From: a bacterium HR28
Lineage (GTDB): Bacteria; Chloroflexota; Chloroflexia; Thermomicrobiales; Thermomicrobiaceae
Length of the DNA: 64,000 nucleotides
NCBI GenBank assembly: GCA_002898255.1
Contig: BEIE01000002.1
Span: forward strand, 372,001 to 436,000
Direction: 5' to 3'
Shown here: piece by piece, positions 2,504 to 9,780 of the stretch
Numbering within the stretch: position 1 is the stretch's first letter
How the letters are laid out: each line of letters starts with the position of its first letter
Translations under genes and position numbers: made by a program
The notes under the pieces: model-generated
What the model was told of the DNA's origin: nothing
Seen by the model: the letters and a program-made list of their open reading frames with translations, nothing else
The model's database searches: none

Positions 2504-5224
2504 TCAGCCCACCGGCCACAGAGGAGAACGACCAAAGCCGGCGAGCGTGGCCGCAAGGAGCAGGAACTCTGCAGCGAGGCCAGCAACGAGCACGATCCAG
2601 TCGAGTTGGCCGAGGCGGAGCTCCCCAAAACGCGGGCGGTGTCCGCGCACGCCCACACCACGAACGGTGAGAACCCAGCTGAGCTGTTGCGCCTGGCGAA
2701 ACGTTGCGGCGAGGGCAGCGGAAAGAACGGGAAGCAAGGCGCGCAGACGTGCCATCCCCCGTTCCGGGATGACCCAGCCGCGAGTCTGCAGCGCTTCGGA
2801 TGCTGTGGAGAACGTCTGAGCAAAGATGGGAATGAAACGGAGGCCAATGGTGAGCGCAAGTCCCACGCTCGCCGGAAGCCCCAGCCGGACAAGACCTTGC
2901 ACCAACGCTCGCTCACTTGTCGTTGCGACCCAGGCTAGTGCGAGCAGCGCCAGTGCGACCAGGCGGAGCGCCGCACCCACCGCGCCGAGGATGCTTGGCA
3001 GGGTAAGCACAAACGGGCCGTAAGAGACAAGGGCCGGCTCACCAGCACGATCGAAGAGGGGACGGAGCACGAGCACGAGCAGGAGGAGTGGCGCGAGCGC
3101 TCGCCAAACCGCTGTGAGTCGCGCGCGGTCGAAACCGCCACCACGCCAGAGGAGAACGTGCAACAAGGCGACTACGACCACGAGGACGAGCGGATTCTGC
3201 CAGAGGAGCAGCGGTAGCGCAGCGACGAGGACTAGCGCGAGCTTGACCCGGGGATCGAGGCGTGCCAAAGCAGGCACCGCGCGTTGGCGTCGCGGCAAGG
3301 TCGGTTCGGAGTGCGCGGATGGCGCTGTCGGCGAGCGAGCAGCTTGGGCTGGCTCAGGTGCGATAGCAGCGGATGGCGTGAGAAGCGCTGCGATGAGTTC
3401 CTCAGGCTCGAGCGCTGGCGGTAGTCCCAACGCACAACTCAGCTCGGTGACAGGAAGTGGGACGAGTCCACTCACCTCCAAAAGCTCAGCATCACCAAGA
3501 ACAACACGTGGCGGTCCTTCGGCCCGCACGATCCCCTCGCTGAGCAGGACAACGCGATGCGCACACCGTGCAACCAACCGGAGATCGTGGCTGATGAGCA
3601 GCGTACTCGCACCAGCGGCCGCACGCTCGGCGAGCAGGTGCACGAGAAGCTCACGGCCAGCTTGATCGAGAGCACTGGTCGGTTCGTCGAGGACGAGAAG
3701 CGCTGGCTCGCGCGCCACCGCTGCCGCGAGCGCAACCAACTGGCGTTGCCCGCGACTCAGGAGAGGGAGATGTCGCTCGGCAAAGGGCAAGAGGCCAAAG
3801 CGCGCGAGCGTTTCCCGGGCTCGCTGCTCGACCTCCTCGGTCGGGAGTCCAAGTTGCCGTAGCCCGAAAGAGACTTCAGCCAAGGGGGTCGCGTGAATGA
3901 GTTGGTGGTCCGGATTCTGCGCGACGTAACCGACGAAAGCAGCGAGCTGGCCGATCGTCTTCGTCCGTGTGTCCTGGCCGGTAACGAGGACGCGACCAGC
4001 AGTGGGATGGAGAGCCCCGATCACCTGCCGGGCAAGCGTGGTCTTCCCTGAGCCGTTCGGACCGACGATGGCGACCACCTCGCCGGGGGCAAGGGTGAGC
4101 TCTACATCACGTAAGACCAGCGGCCCGTTCGGATAGTGGAAAGAGAGGCGTTCGATCCGAAGGACCGGCTCAGGAGCGAGATCAGGGCCGGTCATTTGGA
4201 CGGCACCACCGCGCAGCTGGGCAGATGAACTCTGTGACAGGTCGACAGGACTCGGTTTACCCGAGTCCTGTCTCTCTCGCTCAAACGCCGTGCGCAAGTA
4301 CGCCGCGGCCTCGCTGACATGGCGGAAGAGGCGCGGCGCAGTCGACAGGCCACGCGCCCGAAGATGACGGGTCAGTGCCGCCAGCTGGGGCTCAGCGGTA
4401 CCGAGTGCGTGGAGACGTTCGAGATCGGTGAAGACTTCCGCGGGTGGAGCATCAAGGACAATCCGACCATTGGCGAGGCCGAGCACGCGCTCAACGAGCG
4501 GGAGCAGGAGATCGCTGTCACGCTCAGCGAGAACGATTGTAAGCGAGCGAACGGGATCAGCTGCCAGCGCAGCGAGCGCTTGGAGAAGTTCGCGCTTTCC
4601 GCGTGGATCCAGCTGGGTGGTTGGTTGGTCGAGCACGAGCAGTTCGGGCTGGGCTGCGAGCGCAACAGCCAGGGCGAGACGCTGCTTCTGACCGCCGGAA
4701 AGGTGCCCAGACGGCCGATCAGATTCGTGCGCTAGACCCACTGTCTCGAGCGCCCAAGCGACCCGCTGCGCGACTTCCCCCGGTGGGAGCCCGCGGAGTT
4801 CGAGCGCAAAAGCAACTTCGTCCGCTACGCTCAGCCCGATGAGATTAGCCTCCGGATCCTCGAAGACGATGCCGACCGAGCGAGCAAGTTCAGCCGGTGG
4901 AACACTGGTCGTTTCCTGACCAGCAACAACAAGCCATCCGCGCACGGTCCCACCAGTCTCATGGGGAACCAAGCCAGCAAGGGCGAGGCAGAGCGTGGTT
5001 AGACCACTCCCACTGGCACCGACCAGACCAACGACTTGTCGCGCGGGAATGGCGAAGGTGAGATCGTCAAGCGCCGTCTGTGGTTGTTCACCAGGGACAA
5101 GAGCAGGATAGCGGTAGGTGAACCCCTCAGCCCGAACGACGACGCGTGTCGCCATGCTCGGCCTGGCATCCGAGGTCGAGGCTTCTACCGGCTGGATTTC
5201 AGGATTCATTGGAAGGTTATCCAC
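2504..5224 (-). CDS. ECF transporter energizing module: ATPase-ATPase-EcfT fusion
   Basis: One 906-residue polypeptide holds two ABC ATPase domains (about 27-270 and 353-570), an Ala/Pro-rich linker near 610-645 and an EcfT-like membrane domain with several hydrophobic segments from about 655 to the end. These are the three shared parts of an energy-coupling-factor vitamin or metal importer, usually two or three separate genes. The second ATPase is intact at Walker A (Lys393), Q-loop (Gln435), Walker B (Glu513) and switch His. Its signature reads LSRGQ (488-492). The first ATPase is degenerate: Walker A Lys is Leu75, the Q-loop Gln is Glu122, the Walker B Glu is Gln200 and the switch His is Arg234. 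Its LSGGQ (175-179) is intact. The S component gene lies 67 bases upstream. The GTG start at 5224 is uncertain; ATG 5209 and ATG 5155 are alternatives. Confidence 0.9.
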   Translation of the reverse strand: MDNLPMNPEIQPVEASTSDARPSMATRVVVRAEGFTYRYPALVPGEQPQTALDDLTFAIPARQVVGLVGASGSGLTTLCLALAGLVPHETGGTVRGWLVVAGQETTSVPPAELARSVGIVFEDPEANLIGLSVADEVAFALELRGLPPGEVAQRVAWALETVGLAHESDRPSGHLSGGQKQRLALAVALAAQPELLVLDQPTTQLDPRGKRELLQALAALAADPVRSLTIVLAERDSDLLLPLVERVLGLANGRIVLDAPPAEVFTDLERLHALGTAEPQLAALTRHLRARGLSTAPRLFRHVSEAAAYLRTAFERERQDSGKPSPVDLSQSSSAQLRGGAVQMTGPDLAPEPVLRIERLSFHYPNGPLVLRDVELTLAPGEVVAIVGPNGSGKTTLARQVIGALHPTAGRVLVTGQDTRTKTIGQLAAFVGYVAQNPDHQLIHATPLAEVSFGLRQLGLPTEEVEQRARETLARFGLLPFAERHLPLLSRGQRQLVALAAAVAREPALLVLDEPTSALDQAGRELLVHLLAERAAAGASTLLISHDLRLVARCAHRVVLLSEGIVRAEGPPRVVLGDAELLEVSGLVPLPVTELSCALGLPPALEPEELIAALLTPSAAIAPEPAQAARSPTAPSAHSEPTLPRRQRAVPALARLDPRVKLALVLVAALPLLLWQNPLVLVVVVALLHVLLWRGGGFDRARLTAVWRALAPLLLLVLVLRPLFDRAGEPALVSYGPFVLTLPSILGAVGAALRLVALALLALAWVATTSERALVQGLVRLGLPASVGLALTIGLRFIPIFAQTFSTASEALQTRGWVIPERGMARLRALLPVLSAALAATFRQAQQLSWVLTVRGVGVRGHRPRFGELRLGQLDWIVLVAGLAAEFLLLAATLAGFGRSPLWPVG

Positions 5225-5291: not shown

Positions 5292-5852
5292 TCAGGCCTC
5301 GCGGCGGAACCGTTGCGGCTGTAGACGGGCGAGGAGCGCGGCGTAGCTCTCCCGAAAGAGGATCGTCAACGCGACACCCCCGACCGCCCCCGAGACGACC
5401 TGCCAAATATTGAAGGGCACGTTGGCCGTCGCGGTGGCGAGACCGATGCGCAGCACGGCGACTTCGTACAAGAAATACCCGACGACAATGAGAAGACCGC
5501 CAATGGTCACAGCGAGGATCATGCGCCAGATCCCGGCGCGCCAGCCGATCCAACCGGCGAGGAGGCCCTGGAGCCCATGGAGCACAAGCGTCGCCGGAGC
5601 GTACTGACCATACCCACTGGTGAGGTCAGCCAGCATCGGGCCAAGCGCTCCGCTGATGCCCCCGACGATGGGGCCGAACAGGAAAGCACCCGTATAGATG
5701 GCAATATCGCCGAGGTGAATATAGCCACTTGGGATCGGCACCTGGATGAAGCGGGTGGCCACGAAGACTACGGCGATCATCACGCCGCTTAGGGCGATGG
5801 TGAGGGGAGTGAACGCGAACCGCTGTGACTGCCCGGGTCGTCCAATCTGCAT
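5292..5852 (-). CDS. ECF transporter S component (substrate-binding membrane protein)
   Basis: This 186-residue, highly hydrophobic protein has about six membrane segments. The motif SGYIHLGD near residues 41-48, followed by GPIVGGISGALG and a conserved LADLTSGYG, matches the ECF substrate-specific component family PF07155. Members bind vitamins or precursors such as hydroxymethylpyrimidine, riboflavin or folate; sequence alone does not fix the ligand. ATG 5852 is preceded by GAGAGGAGG at ideal spacing, so the longer open frame upstream is not used. It precedes the fused ATPase/EcfT gene in the same direction, giving a complete two-gene ECF transporter. Confidence 0.85.
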   Translation of the reverse strand: MQIGRPGQSQRFAFTPLTIALSGVMIAVVFVATRFIQVPIPSGYIHLGDIAIYTGAFLFGPIVGGISGALGPMLADLTSGYGQYAPATLVLHGLQGLLAGWIGWRAGIWRMILAVTIGGLLIVVGYFLYEVAVLRIGLATATANVPFNIWQVVSGAVGGVALTILFRESYAALLARLQPQRFRREA

Positions 5853-6630
5853 GACCATCCTCCTCTCTCCAATACGGCAAGCGTGCGCGGAACGAGTATC
5901 CCGGACAACAGCCAATTGGCACCATCCAATTGAAGCGACGCCAGGAAGTTGGTTTTCGGCAAAGAACGGCGATTCGGCAGTGCTGCGCGAGAGGGCAGCG
6001 CGGCACTGTTCAGTTGCCACACAAGAGAACGAGCCGTATCCGCTGCCAGCTAACCGAACGCCAGGCCAAACAACAGGCCGCATTGGCAACCCTTGATGCA
6101 CAACCGCCTGCTCTGATGGAGCACTGCTGATACTGATACGTCACATCGTTCGGCATCATCTCCAATGCTCTTGCACCGCTCAACACTTTTCAGCGTTGTC
6201 CTTGCCCGTTTCAAGGCAGATAACCGAGTCGAAGCGGCTCGTTCCGCGCTGGAACAGGCAAGAGCAACTGCTGGTCCCAAGATGCACAGCGTTTTGTGGT
6301 GCGGGAAGAAGCCTGTTCTGCACCCTGTAGCTCATCGTTGGGATCGCTGCGAAATCCTCCCGACTGCGATTGGCCCAGTGCTGCTCACTGCCTCGCGCTT
6401 TGACCCGTTCCGCGACGAAGAGGAACCTGCATGGGAGGGAGTGAGGGAAAGTGACTTCGCACGTCCGTGATCCTGTGGCCACGGATGACGCAAAGCTCCA
6501 ACTGCCGCAAAGATGGTCAGCTGAACCTTGTCCGCAGACTTCTGGACGTGGCTCACTCATCGAGGGATATCTCGAGCAAGTCGATGAGAAGAGACGATGT
6601 GGCTCTCTGCAGTTTGGGGGTATCGATCCA
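5853..6630. other. divergent intergenic region with a strong hairpin at 5978-6008
   Basis: This 778-base gap separates the ECF operon (minus) from the ABC exporter (plus). It holds an inverted repeat with 11-base arms (CAGTGCTGCGC and GCGCGGCACTG, one G-U pair) around a 9-base loop at 5978-6008, in the presumed ECF leader. I looked for TPP, FMN and cobalamin riboswitch core motifs and did not find them. Reading frames up to 157 codons exist but look like chance frames. Confidence 0.45.
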
Positions 6631-7578
6631 GTGGCAACCGACACACCTGTCATCGTGGTCGACCGGTTGGAGCGGCGGTTCGGTCAGACCGTGGCGCTTG
6701 CCGGGATCAGTTTCCAGGTCGCTGCCGGCGAGATTGTTGGTCTGCTCGGTCATAACGGAGCAGGAAAGACAACCACGATCCGTCTCGTACTCGGTCTGCT
6801 CGCGCCCCACGGTGGAACAGTGCGCGTCTTTGGGTTCGAACCAATGGTCGATGGCGAGCGGATCCGTCAACGGACAGGTGTCGTCGGTGAGTCTCTGGGG
6901 CTCGACGAGCGCTTGACGGCACGGGAACTCTTACAGGTCTTCGCCGATCTCTACGACGTTCCGCGGGCAGTCCAGGCTCAGCGCATCGCAGCACTGTTGG
7001 AGCAGTTTGGGCTGGCCGAGGTGGCCGACCGCCGGGTGGCGACCTACAGCGCTGGGATGCGCCAGCGTCTTGCGTTGGCGCGCTGTCTTCTCCACGACCC
7101 GGAGCTCTTGCTCCTGGACGAGCCAACTGCGACGCTCGATCCGGTGGCAGCACACCACGTCCGGGAGTTAATCGCCGAGCGGCGACGCGAGGGGCGGACG
7201 ATTCTCCTGGCAACGCACAACTTGGATGAGGCGGAACGGCTCTGTGACCGCGTCGTGATTCTTGAACGCGGACGCGTGCTGGTGGAGGGACATCCACAAG
7301 AACTTGCTGCTGCACTCGGCGTTCCAGCACAGCTGGCTGTTGAAGTAGAGCCAGAACTCATCGATATCGCGATCGATGTCCTCACGCGCCGCAGTCTGGC
7401 AGCATGGGCGGAGCCGGAACCAGGGCGGATCATCGTCGAGCGGATGACGCGGCGGCAGGTTCCCGATGTTGTTGCCGCGCTCGTTGGAGCTGGCGTTCCG
7501 GTGTACGGTGTGATGCTCCGCACGCCATCGCTGGAGGACGTCTACTTGGCGTTGCACCAACGAACAGAACGGAGGTGA
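6631..7578 (+). CDS. ABC-2 type transporter, ATP-binding protein
   Basis: This 315-residue protein has Walker A GHNGAGKT (40-47, Lys46), the signature motif YSAGMRQR, Walker B LLLLDEP and switch region LLATHN. After the ATPase core is a C-terminal extension of about 90 residues, as in the DrrA/NatA/CcmA-like exporter group. It should form the ATPase of an exporter with the next gene, which starts 3 bases after its stop. I chose GTG 6631, preceded by a G-rich site. The frame is open to 6451, but the added 60 residues look non-coding. The cargo is unknown. Confidence 0.9.
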   Translation: MATDTPVIVVDRLERRFGQTVALAGISFQVAAGEIVGLLGHNGAGKTTTIRLVLGLLAPHGGTVRVFGFEPMVDGERIRQRTGVVGESLGLDERLTARELLQVFADLYDVPRAVQAQRIAALLEQFGLAEVADRRVATYSAGMRQRLALARCLLHDPELLLLDEPTATLDPVAAHHVRELIAERRREGRTILLATHNLDEAERLCDRVVILERGRVLVEGHPQELAAALGVPAQLAVEVEPELIDIAIDVLTRRSLAAWAEPEPGRIIVERMTRRQVPDVVAALVGAGVPVYGVMLRTPSLEDVYLALHQRTERR

Positions 7579-7581
7579 GGC

Positions 7582-8388
7582 GTGCACTGGCAGCGTGTCC
7601 GGGCGATCGTGCGCAAAGACCTCACAGCGGTGCGGCGAAGCCGGCCAGTGCTCGTGCCACTTGTTGTCCTACCTCTGATCTTCTTCGTCGCGATGCCGGT
7701 CGGTTTCGCGCTGATGGGGCGGTTCCTTAGCGAGGCACCAGACAGCGAACTCGAACCGCTGATTCGTGCCCTCCCTCCTTCCGACCGAGCACAGCTCGAG
7801 CGACTTGAGCCGGGACAGCAGATCGCGGTCGTGCTTCTCAGCTACCAGTTCGCACCTTTAATGCTCATTGTCCCTCTTGCTGTGGCGACTGCGATCGCCG
7901 CGGACAGTCTTGCTGGCGAGCGGGAACGGCGGACACTCGAGGCATTACTGGCAACGCCGATCCGCGACGAAGAGTTGTTCTTCGGCAAAGTCCTGGCTGC
8001 TGCGCTTCCGGCCATCGCGATCGGTTGGCTGGGTACGTTTGTCGAAGTGCTGGTAGCCATCGCTGTAACCGGTGTCGGGCCCCCACTCCTCCCGAGCGTA
8101 CCGTTGCTCATCCTCGCACTCCTCGGGGTACCAGGGGTCGCGTTCCTCGGGCTAGGAACCGTTGTGCTTATCTCGGCACGGGTGCGCGGGTTTCAGGAAG
8201 TCATGCAGCTGAGTGGGTTATTGGCAATGCCGCTCATCGGCGTCATGGTGGCACAGGCAAGCGGGCTCTTCCTGATCGACTGGCGCCTCGCACTGCTTGG
8301 CTGTGTGGTCGTCTGGGCGACGGCGTTTGGAATTTTGCGCGCTGGTCGCCGCCTCTTCCAGCGAGAAGCGCTACTCCGGCTCGGGTGA
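7582..8388 (+). CDS. ABC-2 type transporter permease
   Basis: This 268-residue membrane protein has an N-terminal RAIVRKDL segment typical of ABC-2 permeases. A first hydrophobic helix is followed by a soluble loop of roughly 70 residues (about 48-110) with a Ser/Pro/Glu-rich composition, then the conserved SLAGERERRTLEALLATPI motif and five further hydrophobic segments. That motif is the coupling region of the ABC-2/NatB-like family. It uses GTG 7582 with AACGGAGGTGAG upstream. It forms an operon with the ATPase before it and overlaps the convergent MFS gene by 18 bases at its 3' end. Confidence 0.9.
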   Translation: MHWQRVRAIVRKDLTAVRRSRPVLVPLVVLPLIFFVAMPVGFALMGRFLSEAPDSELEPLIRALPPSDRAQLERLEPGQQIAVVLLSYQFAPLMLIVPLAVATAIAADSLAGERERRTLEALLATPIRDEELFFGKVLAAALPAIAIGWLGTFVEVLVAIAVTGVGPPLLPSVPLLILALLGVPGVAFLGLGTVVLISARVRGFQEVMQLSGLLAMPLIGVMVAQASGLFLIDWRLALLGCVVVWATAFGILRAGRRLFQREALLRLG

Positions 8389-9600
8389 CTGCAGTGCGGG
8401 CGAGAGCGTGCGCCGGGCAGTGGACTCGGCCACCGCTGCCGCCAGTGCCGAGATACATCCCACGAGGACAAGGCCCCACCAGACCGGTTCATAGTGCCCA
8501 AGAACCGTATAGAGTGTACCGACACCGAGGGGCGCCGCTGCACGCGCCAACGTAATTGGAAGCGTCATGGTGCCAGCGATGGCCCCATAGGCAGTACTAC
8601 CAAACAGTTCGGCGGGGCGCGCGGCTCGCAAGATCGTAATCATCCCGTTGGCCATCCCAAATGCCACGACAAACCCGAGGACGGCAGCCTCCCTGCCATT
8701 GGGAAGGAGCAAGAGAAGCAAGGCACCACCTTGGACGAGGAAGACTGCGGTCGTCAACGTCCGGTTGGACAGCCAGCGACCGAGCGGTGCGACGAGTAAG
8801 CGGCCCGGAATTTGCATCAGGCCGACCAGGCCGGTTGCAGTCGCAGCAAAGGCAGGCGCGAAGCCGCGACCCTGGAGATACGGCAGGAGATGGACATTCA
8901 CGGCCACCGTGACGAGCGCGGCGAGTGTCAACGCCGTGCTCAGTGCCCAGAATGTGGGGGTGCGGAGCGCAGCGCGAGCACTGGAAGCCGGCGCTTCCCG
9001 GCCGACAGGACGGTGATCAGGTGGCGCACGGAGCAGCAGCGCATGCGGCAGAGCCGTGGCAACGAACAACAGTCCAGCGAGGGCGACCAACGCATCACGC
9101 CAGCCGAGGAGGCTGACGAGCCAGGTGTTGAACGGAGTAAAGATGACAGAGGCAAGCCCACCGACAAGCGTGAGAACCGTGATTGCCAACCGCCGGCGGC
9201 GCTCAAACCACTTCGCGAGCGTGGCAAAGGCCGGCTCGTAGAGGACGAGTGCCATGGCAAGTCCAAGACCGGCCCAGAGCGCATAGAACGCGGGTAGTCC
9301 CTGAATACGCGACCACGCAAGAACGAGCAGTGTGGCAAGAAGCGAGCCGAGCGTCATCGGCCAACGCGGGCCAGCACGGTCGAGTATGCGCCCAACCAGC
9401 GGTGCAGCCAGCCCAGAGAGGAGCAGGGCAAGAGAGAATGCACCAGTAAGGCTGGCACGCGACTCCCCGAGTTCGCGCTCCATAGGCACAAGGAAGACAG
9501 GAAATCCGTAGTAGAGCACGCCCCAAGAAACCGTCTCCGTCAGCGCGAGCGTGCCGACAATCACCCAGGCATAGCCGCGGTCACGCTGGTGGCGTCCCAC
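8371..9600 (-). CDS. MFS transporter, oxalate/formate antiporter-like
   Basis: This 409-residue protein has twelve predicted hydrophobic segments and major facilitator signatures, including GRILDRAGPRWPM between helices 2 and 3. The pattern resembles OFA/monocarboxylate-type carriers, which move small organic acids. GTG 9600 follows GGAGGAGGGG; the 36 extra codons upstream are unlikely to be translated. It is transcribed alone and overlaps the convergent permease gene by 18 bases. The substrate is not indicated. Confidence 0.8.
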   Translation of the reverse strand: MGRHQRDRGYAWVIVGTLALTETVSWGVLYYGFPVFLVPMERELGESRASLTGAFSLALLLSGLAAPLVGRILDRAGPRWPMTLGSLLATLLVLAWSRIQGLPAFYALWAGLGLAMALVLYEPAFATLAKWFERRRRLAITVLTLVGGLASVIFTPFNTWLVSLLGWRDALVALAGLLFVATALPHALLLRAPPDHRPVGREAPASSARAALRTPTFWALSTALTLAALVTVAVNVHLLPYLQGRGFAPAFAATATGLVGLMQIPGRLLVAPLGRWLSNRTLTTAVFLVQGGALLLLLLPNGREAAVLGFVVAFGMANGMITILRAARPAELFGSTAYGAIAGTMTLPITLARAAAPLGVGTLYTVLGHYEPVWWGLVLVGCISALAAAVAESTARRTLSPALQSPEPE

Positions 9601-9780
9601 TACCCCTCCTCCAGGCACATGATCGCATGACACACGGCAGTGAGACAGGGGCTTCATGCTCCGACCTTCTTCCTTGTCAAGGGGCAAATTCAGCCGGTCA
9701 GCAAGCACTGTGTTACGCTGACCAGTCCCTGCGCCATTCTGTGGTGGACTGTGAGAATTGGTGTGTCGGAAGCAAGCTCT

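Follow-up and report, generated by a model that had tools for sequence, protein, structure and literature searches.

Whether an ECF importer can run on a single ATP site is the question raised by a gene in the window (the whole 64-kb stretch of DNA that was analysed). In the published ECF cycle, ATP-driven closure of the ATPase pair bends the EcfT coupling helices and expels the S component (PMC10368641). When Glu was changed to Gln in just one ATPase of the L. delbrueckii ECF module, whichever of the two it was, the module lost both ATPase activity and transport in vitro (PMC10368641); because removing either catalytic Glu stops both hydrolysis and transport by this group II module, two working sites seem to be required. 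The module described here comes from a genome placed in Thermomicrobium, judged from named relatives, and has the catalytic residues of one ATPase domain replaced.

Gene, domains and genomic context

The features of the locus are as follows.

2504..5224, minus strand: EcfA-EcfA'-EcfT fusion ORF, 906 aa, GTG start (an alternative ATG is residue 6)
2504..3268, minus strand: EcfT (CbiQ) domain, with the Arg of both X-Arg-X coupling motifs kept (TRG and VRG)
5292..5852, minus strand: cognate S component, PF07155 (111 bits), on the same strand as the fusion and 67 bp upstream of its start
6451..8388, plus strand, and 8371..9708, minus strand: ABC-2 exporter pair

The first-pass annotation described both ATPases and EcfT as one polypeptide, and Pfam agrees, placing two ABC_tran stretches and then CbiQ/EcfT (PF02361, 81 bits, residues 653-856) in the 906-aa frame. 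The domains extend approximately over residues 30-300 (ATPase 1), 352-590 (ATPase 2) and 653-856 and beyond (EcfT/CbiQ). The whole fusion scores 358 bits against TIGR04520 (cut-off 315) and 340 bits against TIGR04521 (cut-off 330), both NCBIfam ECF ATPase models. In Thermomicrobium sp. CFH 73360, one of the named relatives, the EcfT domain is 96% identical, and fusion of EcfT to the ATPases occurs, within the sample examined, in Thermomicrobium only.

Besides the S component, no protein of the genome scores above the PF07155 cut-off. The order S-then-module is repeated at sister loci, S is conserved upstream in relatives, and the 67-bp gap places S beside its module as in group I ECF systems. 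By all features tested, the predicted proteins make up an ECF transporter with a variant motor. The ABC-2 exporter pair separates the S component from an MFS gene that, in sister genera, lies immediately upstream of S; this suggests an insertion or rearrangement in Thermomicrobium.

None of the clues looked at points to a substrate. No regulatory RNA or riboswitch was found in the 64-kb window or at 23 related loci, which gave tRNAs only, and the neighbours at related loci (MFS, hydrolase, peptide-binding protein, AFOR) included no consistent partner. The nearest solved relative of S, L. brevis 4hzu_S (E 1e-14), gives no substrate because the match is too distant. Group II systems share one module among scattered S components, and the genome has one candidate for such sharing, an orphan PF12822 S component (L173, genome position C1:1016804-1017307) that lies by a gene for a BtuF-like binding protein, with no ECF module alongside.

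Motif states of the two ATP sites

Each ABC site is built from the Walker, Q-loop and switch His elements of one ATPase domain and the signature contributed by its partner (PMC7756269). Site I is here the Walker, Q-loop and switch elements of ATPase 1 with the signature of ATPase 2, and site II is those elements of ATPase 2 with the signature of ATPase 1. The motifs, all on the minus strand, read as follows.

4994..5020, minus strand: ATPase 1 Walker A GASGSGLTT, Lys replaced by Leu75 (codon 5000-5002)
4859..4861, minus strand: ATPase 1 Q-loop VFEDPE, Gln replaced by Glu122
4688..4702, minus strand: ATPase 1 signature LSGGQ, residues 175-179, intact; serves site II
4619..4639, minus strand: ATPase 1 Walker B LVLDQPT, catalytic Glu replaced by Gln200 (codon 4625-4627)
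4520..4522, minus strand: ATPase 1 switch AERD, His replaced by Arg235; AERD aligns with ISHD
4037..4063, minus strand: ATPase 2 Walker A GPNGSGKTT, canonical, Lys394; site II
3917..3919, minus strand: ATPase 2 Q-loop VAQNPD, canonical Gln436
3746..3760, minus strand: ATPase 2 signature LSRGQ, residues 489-493, altered; serves site I
3677..3697, minus strand: ATPase 2 Walker B LVLDEPT, catalytic Glu514
3587..3589, minus strand: ATPase 2 switch ISHD, canonical His546

ATPase 2 is canonical at all four catalytic positions, and its sole departure is LSRGQ. Judged by its residues this is a mild change, with Ser and the fourth-position Gly kept, and the thoroughly lost half of site I is the Walker half. 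Walker B Asp199 and Walker A Thr76 remain in ATPase 1. Because of this composite make-up of ABC sites, all departures fall in a single one, site I.

Most of this had been read correctly in the first-pass annotation: Leu75, Glu122 and Gln200 are exact in the translation, LSGGQ of ATPase 1 is intact, and ATPase 2 combines intact catalytic motifs with LSRGQ. The replacement of the ATPase 1 switch His by Arg and the presence of a catalytic Glu in ATPase 2 also stand, but these residues are 235 and 514, not 234 and 513. Its conclusion that one composite site is complete and the other defective follows from standard ABC dimer geometry, and it survived the two objections that it had itself foreseen, canonical ATPase 1 in homologues and a second complete ecfA in the genome, both of which are taken up below.

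A structure prediction, which had been proposed as a check, is consistent with this arrangement. The AlphaFold2 model (35-sequence alignment) has pLDDT of about 95 in both ATPase domains and is poor in EcfT. Compared with the DppD chain, a fused tandem NBD, of ATP-bound DppABCD, it aligns over 595 columns with a TM of 0.82 to the target and 4.8 A. The model is consistent with ATPase 1 and ATPase 2 forming a head-to-tail pair inside one chain.

Conservation and selection in Thermomicrobium

Alignment with homologues bears out the substitutions in congeners. All four are invariant in each sampled Thermomicrobium species that yielded the gene, six in total (G000, G001, G002, G003, G005 and G006; 67-93% identity). 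In G002 the gene is divided between two contig ends, and both halves agree on the substitutions. The substituted codons show synonymous turnover: codon 75 is CTA, CTG, TTG or CTC depending on the species, so the Leu residue is kept while its codon turns over, and the shared substitutions are not a product of chance.

Nei-Gojobori (NG86) dN/dS ratios are 0.06-0.20 for ATPase 1, 0.12-0.20 for ATPase 2 and 0.10-0.16 for EcfT, and mostly about 1 or above for the first inter-domain linker; ratios for the farther pairs are rough owing to high dS. By these estimates purifying selection acts on ATPase 1, which is constrained to the same degree as ATPase 2 and EcfT. Local decay of ATPase 1 was considered and is rejected, since the congeners share the changes and the domain is under purifying selection; a dispensable ATPase 1 would not be expected to match the other two domains in dN/dS. 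The loss of four catalytic residues from one domain might still be taken as a sign that the module as a whole is decaying or non-functional, which is very unlikely given an intact 906-aa frame, dN/dS of about 0.06-0.2 in all three domains, the same substitutions in six species, an intact S component and a full set of ATPase 2 motifs. Purifying selection indicates that the protein matters and does not by itself establish transport.

The same constraint bears on whether another complete cellular ECF ATPase substitutes for ATPase 1 in the working complex. Candidates exist, a canonical single CbiO (C2:145181) and a YkoD-like tandem ECF ATPase (C1:61852-63090). The genome has three EcfT genes, one in a CbiMNQO-like operon with a single ATPase, one in a YkoCD-like module with the tandem ATPase, and one in the fusion, so that both candidates are adjoined by an EcfT of their own. 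With each of the other ECF ATPases thus tied to a separate operon and its EcfT, there is no obvious free ecfA to take the place of ATPase 1. No unpaired ecfA lies close to the fusion operon, and ATPase 1 is part of one covalent chain with ATPase 2 and EcfT and is equally constrained. Substitution is highly improbable on these grounds.

Directional erosion of site I among relatives

ECF ATPase pairs were pulled by HMM from all fetched loci and their motif columns read, giving 103 rows, mostly from Chloroflexota. On the tree of these rows, site I motifs need at least 33 changes: 1 at Lys, 3 each at Gln and Glu, 10 at His, 12 at the signature Ser and 4 at signature Gly-4. Site II needs a minimum of 1, at His, with 0 at each of the other positions. 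The catalytic Glu of ATPase 1 was thus lost at least 3 times and its switch His changed at least 10 times, against 0 and 1 in ATPase 2. If events are assumed to be independent and equally likely, the binomial p is 4e-9, and 1e-4 for the 17 versus 1 changes left without the signatures, but events are not strictly independent, reversals are possible, the tree was quickly built and sampling focused on Chloroflexota, and 33-to-1 is best read as a strong asymmetry of these sequences and not as an exact probability.

The asymmetry is evident in a 37-row clade (support 96/85 with motif columns masked) of Chloroflexota, Bifidobacterium, a Treponema and a Peptococcaceae MAG, which have a PF07155-like S component upstream where checked. 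In this clade the ATPase 2 signature departs from LSGG in 37 of 37 rows (LGFGL, LGYGQ, LSYGV, LGRAA and others) and the ATPase 1 switch His is gone in 33. Lys, Gln and Glu of ATPase 1 are retained in other Thermomicrobiaceae and in relatives, Thermalbibacter and Sphaerobacter among them, and to that extent the canonical homologues foreseen as an objection exist, but these homologues already have Ser, Gln or Arg in place of the switch His and a worse ATPase 2 signature (LGRAA, LGRGL or LRRGL). The changes of Lys to Leu, Gln to Glu and Glu to Gln were added in Thermomicrobium alone. Since relatives lacking both the switch His and the signature still keep Lys, Gln and Glu, it appears that the first two were lost earliest and the other three afterwards. 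Thermomicrobium is, on these alignments, the extreme of a wider trend of site I erosion; the first-pass annotation had missed that the trend recurs and runs in one direction, with Thermomicrobium at its end point and not a singleton.

Similar losses are found elsewhere. In two unrelated complete S-AA'-T operons of Chloroflexota (L161 and L166) the catalytic Glu of ATPase 1 was replaced independently, by Asn and by Gln respectively, with Asp at the ATPase 1 switch and altered ATPase 2 signatures (LSYGD and LSRGQ). A group of Chloroflexia tandem ECF ATPases (L044-L050 and L059) has an ATPase 1 Q-loop, VGSNAF, without Gln, and LPPAR for LSGGQ in ATPase 2, which by its motifs is another route to a weakened site I. 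In the same alignment, Lachnospiraceae group II modules are canonical at both sites. Too few of the independent pairs differ in both features for a comparison of switch His loss with signature loss to have any power.

Two further observations concern the remaining rows. The only site II exception is Bifidobacterium magnum (L099), with Asn at the ATPase 2 switch and LSRGE as the ATPase 1 signature. Thermoflexus-type group II-like pairs (L100, L102 and L108) have Gln at the switch of the first ATPase and both signatures intact.

The signatures also bear on how the chains associate. ATPase 2 has all Walker-side residues, and its LSRGQ keeps Ser and the fourth-position Gly, so fused chains could conceivably dimerise through ATPase 2-ATPase 2 pairing with ATPase 1 as a spacer. 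An ATPase 2 homodimer would, however, be without a working signature in the relatives, because theirs are far worse (LGRAA, LPPAR, LGLSW), whereas LSGGQ of ATPase 1 is perfect in every Thermomicrobium species and the predicted model is consistent with ATPase 1 pairing with ATPase 2. Such pairing is most improbable.

A probable motor with one ATP site

The fusion, the motif states, their conservation, the selection on ATPase 1 and the directional erosion of site I in relatives are all read directly from the sequences. They are best explained by a dedicated (group I) ECF importer that is functional and powered by one ATP site, to which we assign a probability of roughly three in four. Site II, made of the ATPase 2 Walker A and B motifs, Gln436, Glu514 and His546 with LSGGQ of ATPase 1, would bind and hydrolyse ATP. 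Site I (Leu75, Glu122, Gln200 and Arg235 with LSRGQ) would not hydrolyse ATP, and its binding of nucleotide is probably weak or absent. ATPase 1 would be retained as a scaffold that holds one EcfT coupling helix and supplies the signature to site II. Closure of the pair, and with it bending of the coupling helices and release of the S component, would follow from ATP binding at site II only, and a single hydrolysis event would reset the transporter. Catalytic silence of site I, the use of one ATP per cycle, transport activity and substrate are inferred.

A one-site ECF motor would need compensating changes, because a single Glu-to-Gln change in either L. delbrueckii ATPase abolishes activity. 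The Thermomicrobium module must either have adapted to running on site II only, the reading preferred here, or employ site I as a joint without catalysis, the principal alternative. In the latter case site I would hold ATP permanently without hydrolysis, as a nucleotide-stabilised hinge like that of several asymmetric exporters. Degenerate exporter sites are generally known to retain nucleotide often (reviewed in PMC7756269). Asp199 of Walker B and Thr76 of Walker A are still in place, and ATPase 1 keeps Lys and Glu in most of the wider clade. The Walker A Lys is central to phosphate binding, but it is Leu in every Thermomicrobium species, and the Q-loop Gln is gone too, which makes a permanently occupied site I rather unlikely.

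Adaptation to site II alone may be part of a broader pattern. The proposal that one-site ECF motors evolved repeatedly, always via site I, and that the process is complete in Thermomicrobium, where site I would no longer be a nucleotide site and a single ATP would drive both S release and reset, unlike the studied module that needs both Glu, is one for which we consider the odds to be even.

Comparison with known systems

Degenerate sites are common in exporters (PMC7756269) and known in the fused-NBD importers RbsA and NupO (PMC11466899). The first-pass annotation was right that such asymmetry is known in exporters and overlooked that tandem-NBD asymmetry is already known in importers too. 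A search of largely open-access literature found no report of a degenerate site in an ECF module and no biochemical work on this protein or its clade; degenerate ABC sites are known, and their occurrence in an ECF module appears new as far as the open-access literature shows. Loss of either site stops transport in the only ECF importer found to have been tested, and Thermomicrobium keeps one lost. Its genus-wide Lys-to-Leu and Glu-to-Gln changes, with relatives graded from canonical to dead, offer a direct comparison for the number of ATPs per ECF cycle and the role of each site, and a two-gene S plus AA'T system from a thermophile is simplified and convenient for structure work.

The L. delbrueckii EcfA-EcfA'-EcfT module (PMC10368641) shares with the Thermomicrobium transporter its subunits, the site II motifs, the Arg motifs of the EcfT coupling helices and a membrane S component. 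It has a catalytic Glu in both sites, whereas in Thermomicrobium one site carries Glu-to-Gln naturally, besides three other losses, and a single chain holds A, A' and T. The asymmetric exporters (Pdr5, TAP, the ABCC family and MsRv1273c/72c) likewise have one composite site multiply lost and the other complete, and Pdr5, like Thermomicrobium, has lost Lys, Glu, His and signature in one site (PMC7756269); unlike the Thermomicrobium ECF transporter, these exporters have their own transmembrane domains and neither an S component nor toppling. In Pdr5, a return of the degenerate site to canonical residues is reported to lower activity. The sugar/nucleoside importers RbsA and NupO likewise carry both NBDs in tandem on a single polypeptide, with one site degenerate (PMC11466899), but they are Type II importers with soluble binding proteins, a lost second Walker A and no EcfT fusion. 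The other PF07155-linked ECF operons of Chloroflexota, Bifidobacterium, Treponema and Peptococcaceae share the ATPase-pair clade, the S family upstream where checked, an altered ATPase 2 signature and the usual loss of the ATPase 1 switch His, and differ from Thermomicrobium in keeping Lys, Gln and Glu in ATPase 1 and in encoding EcfT as a separate gene.
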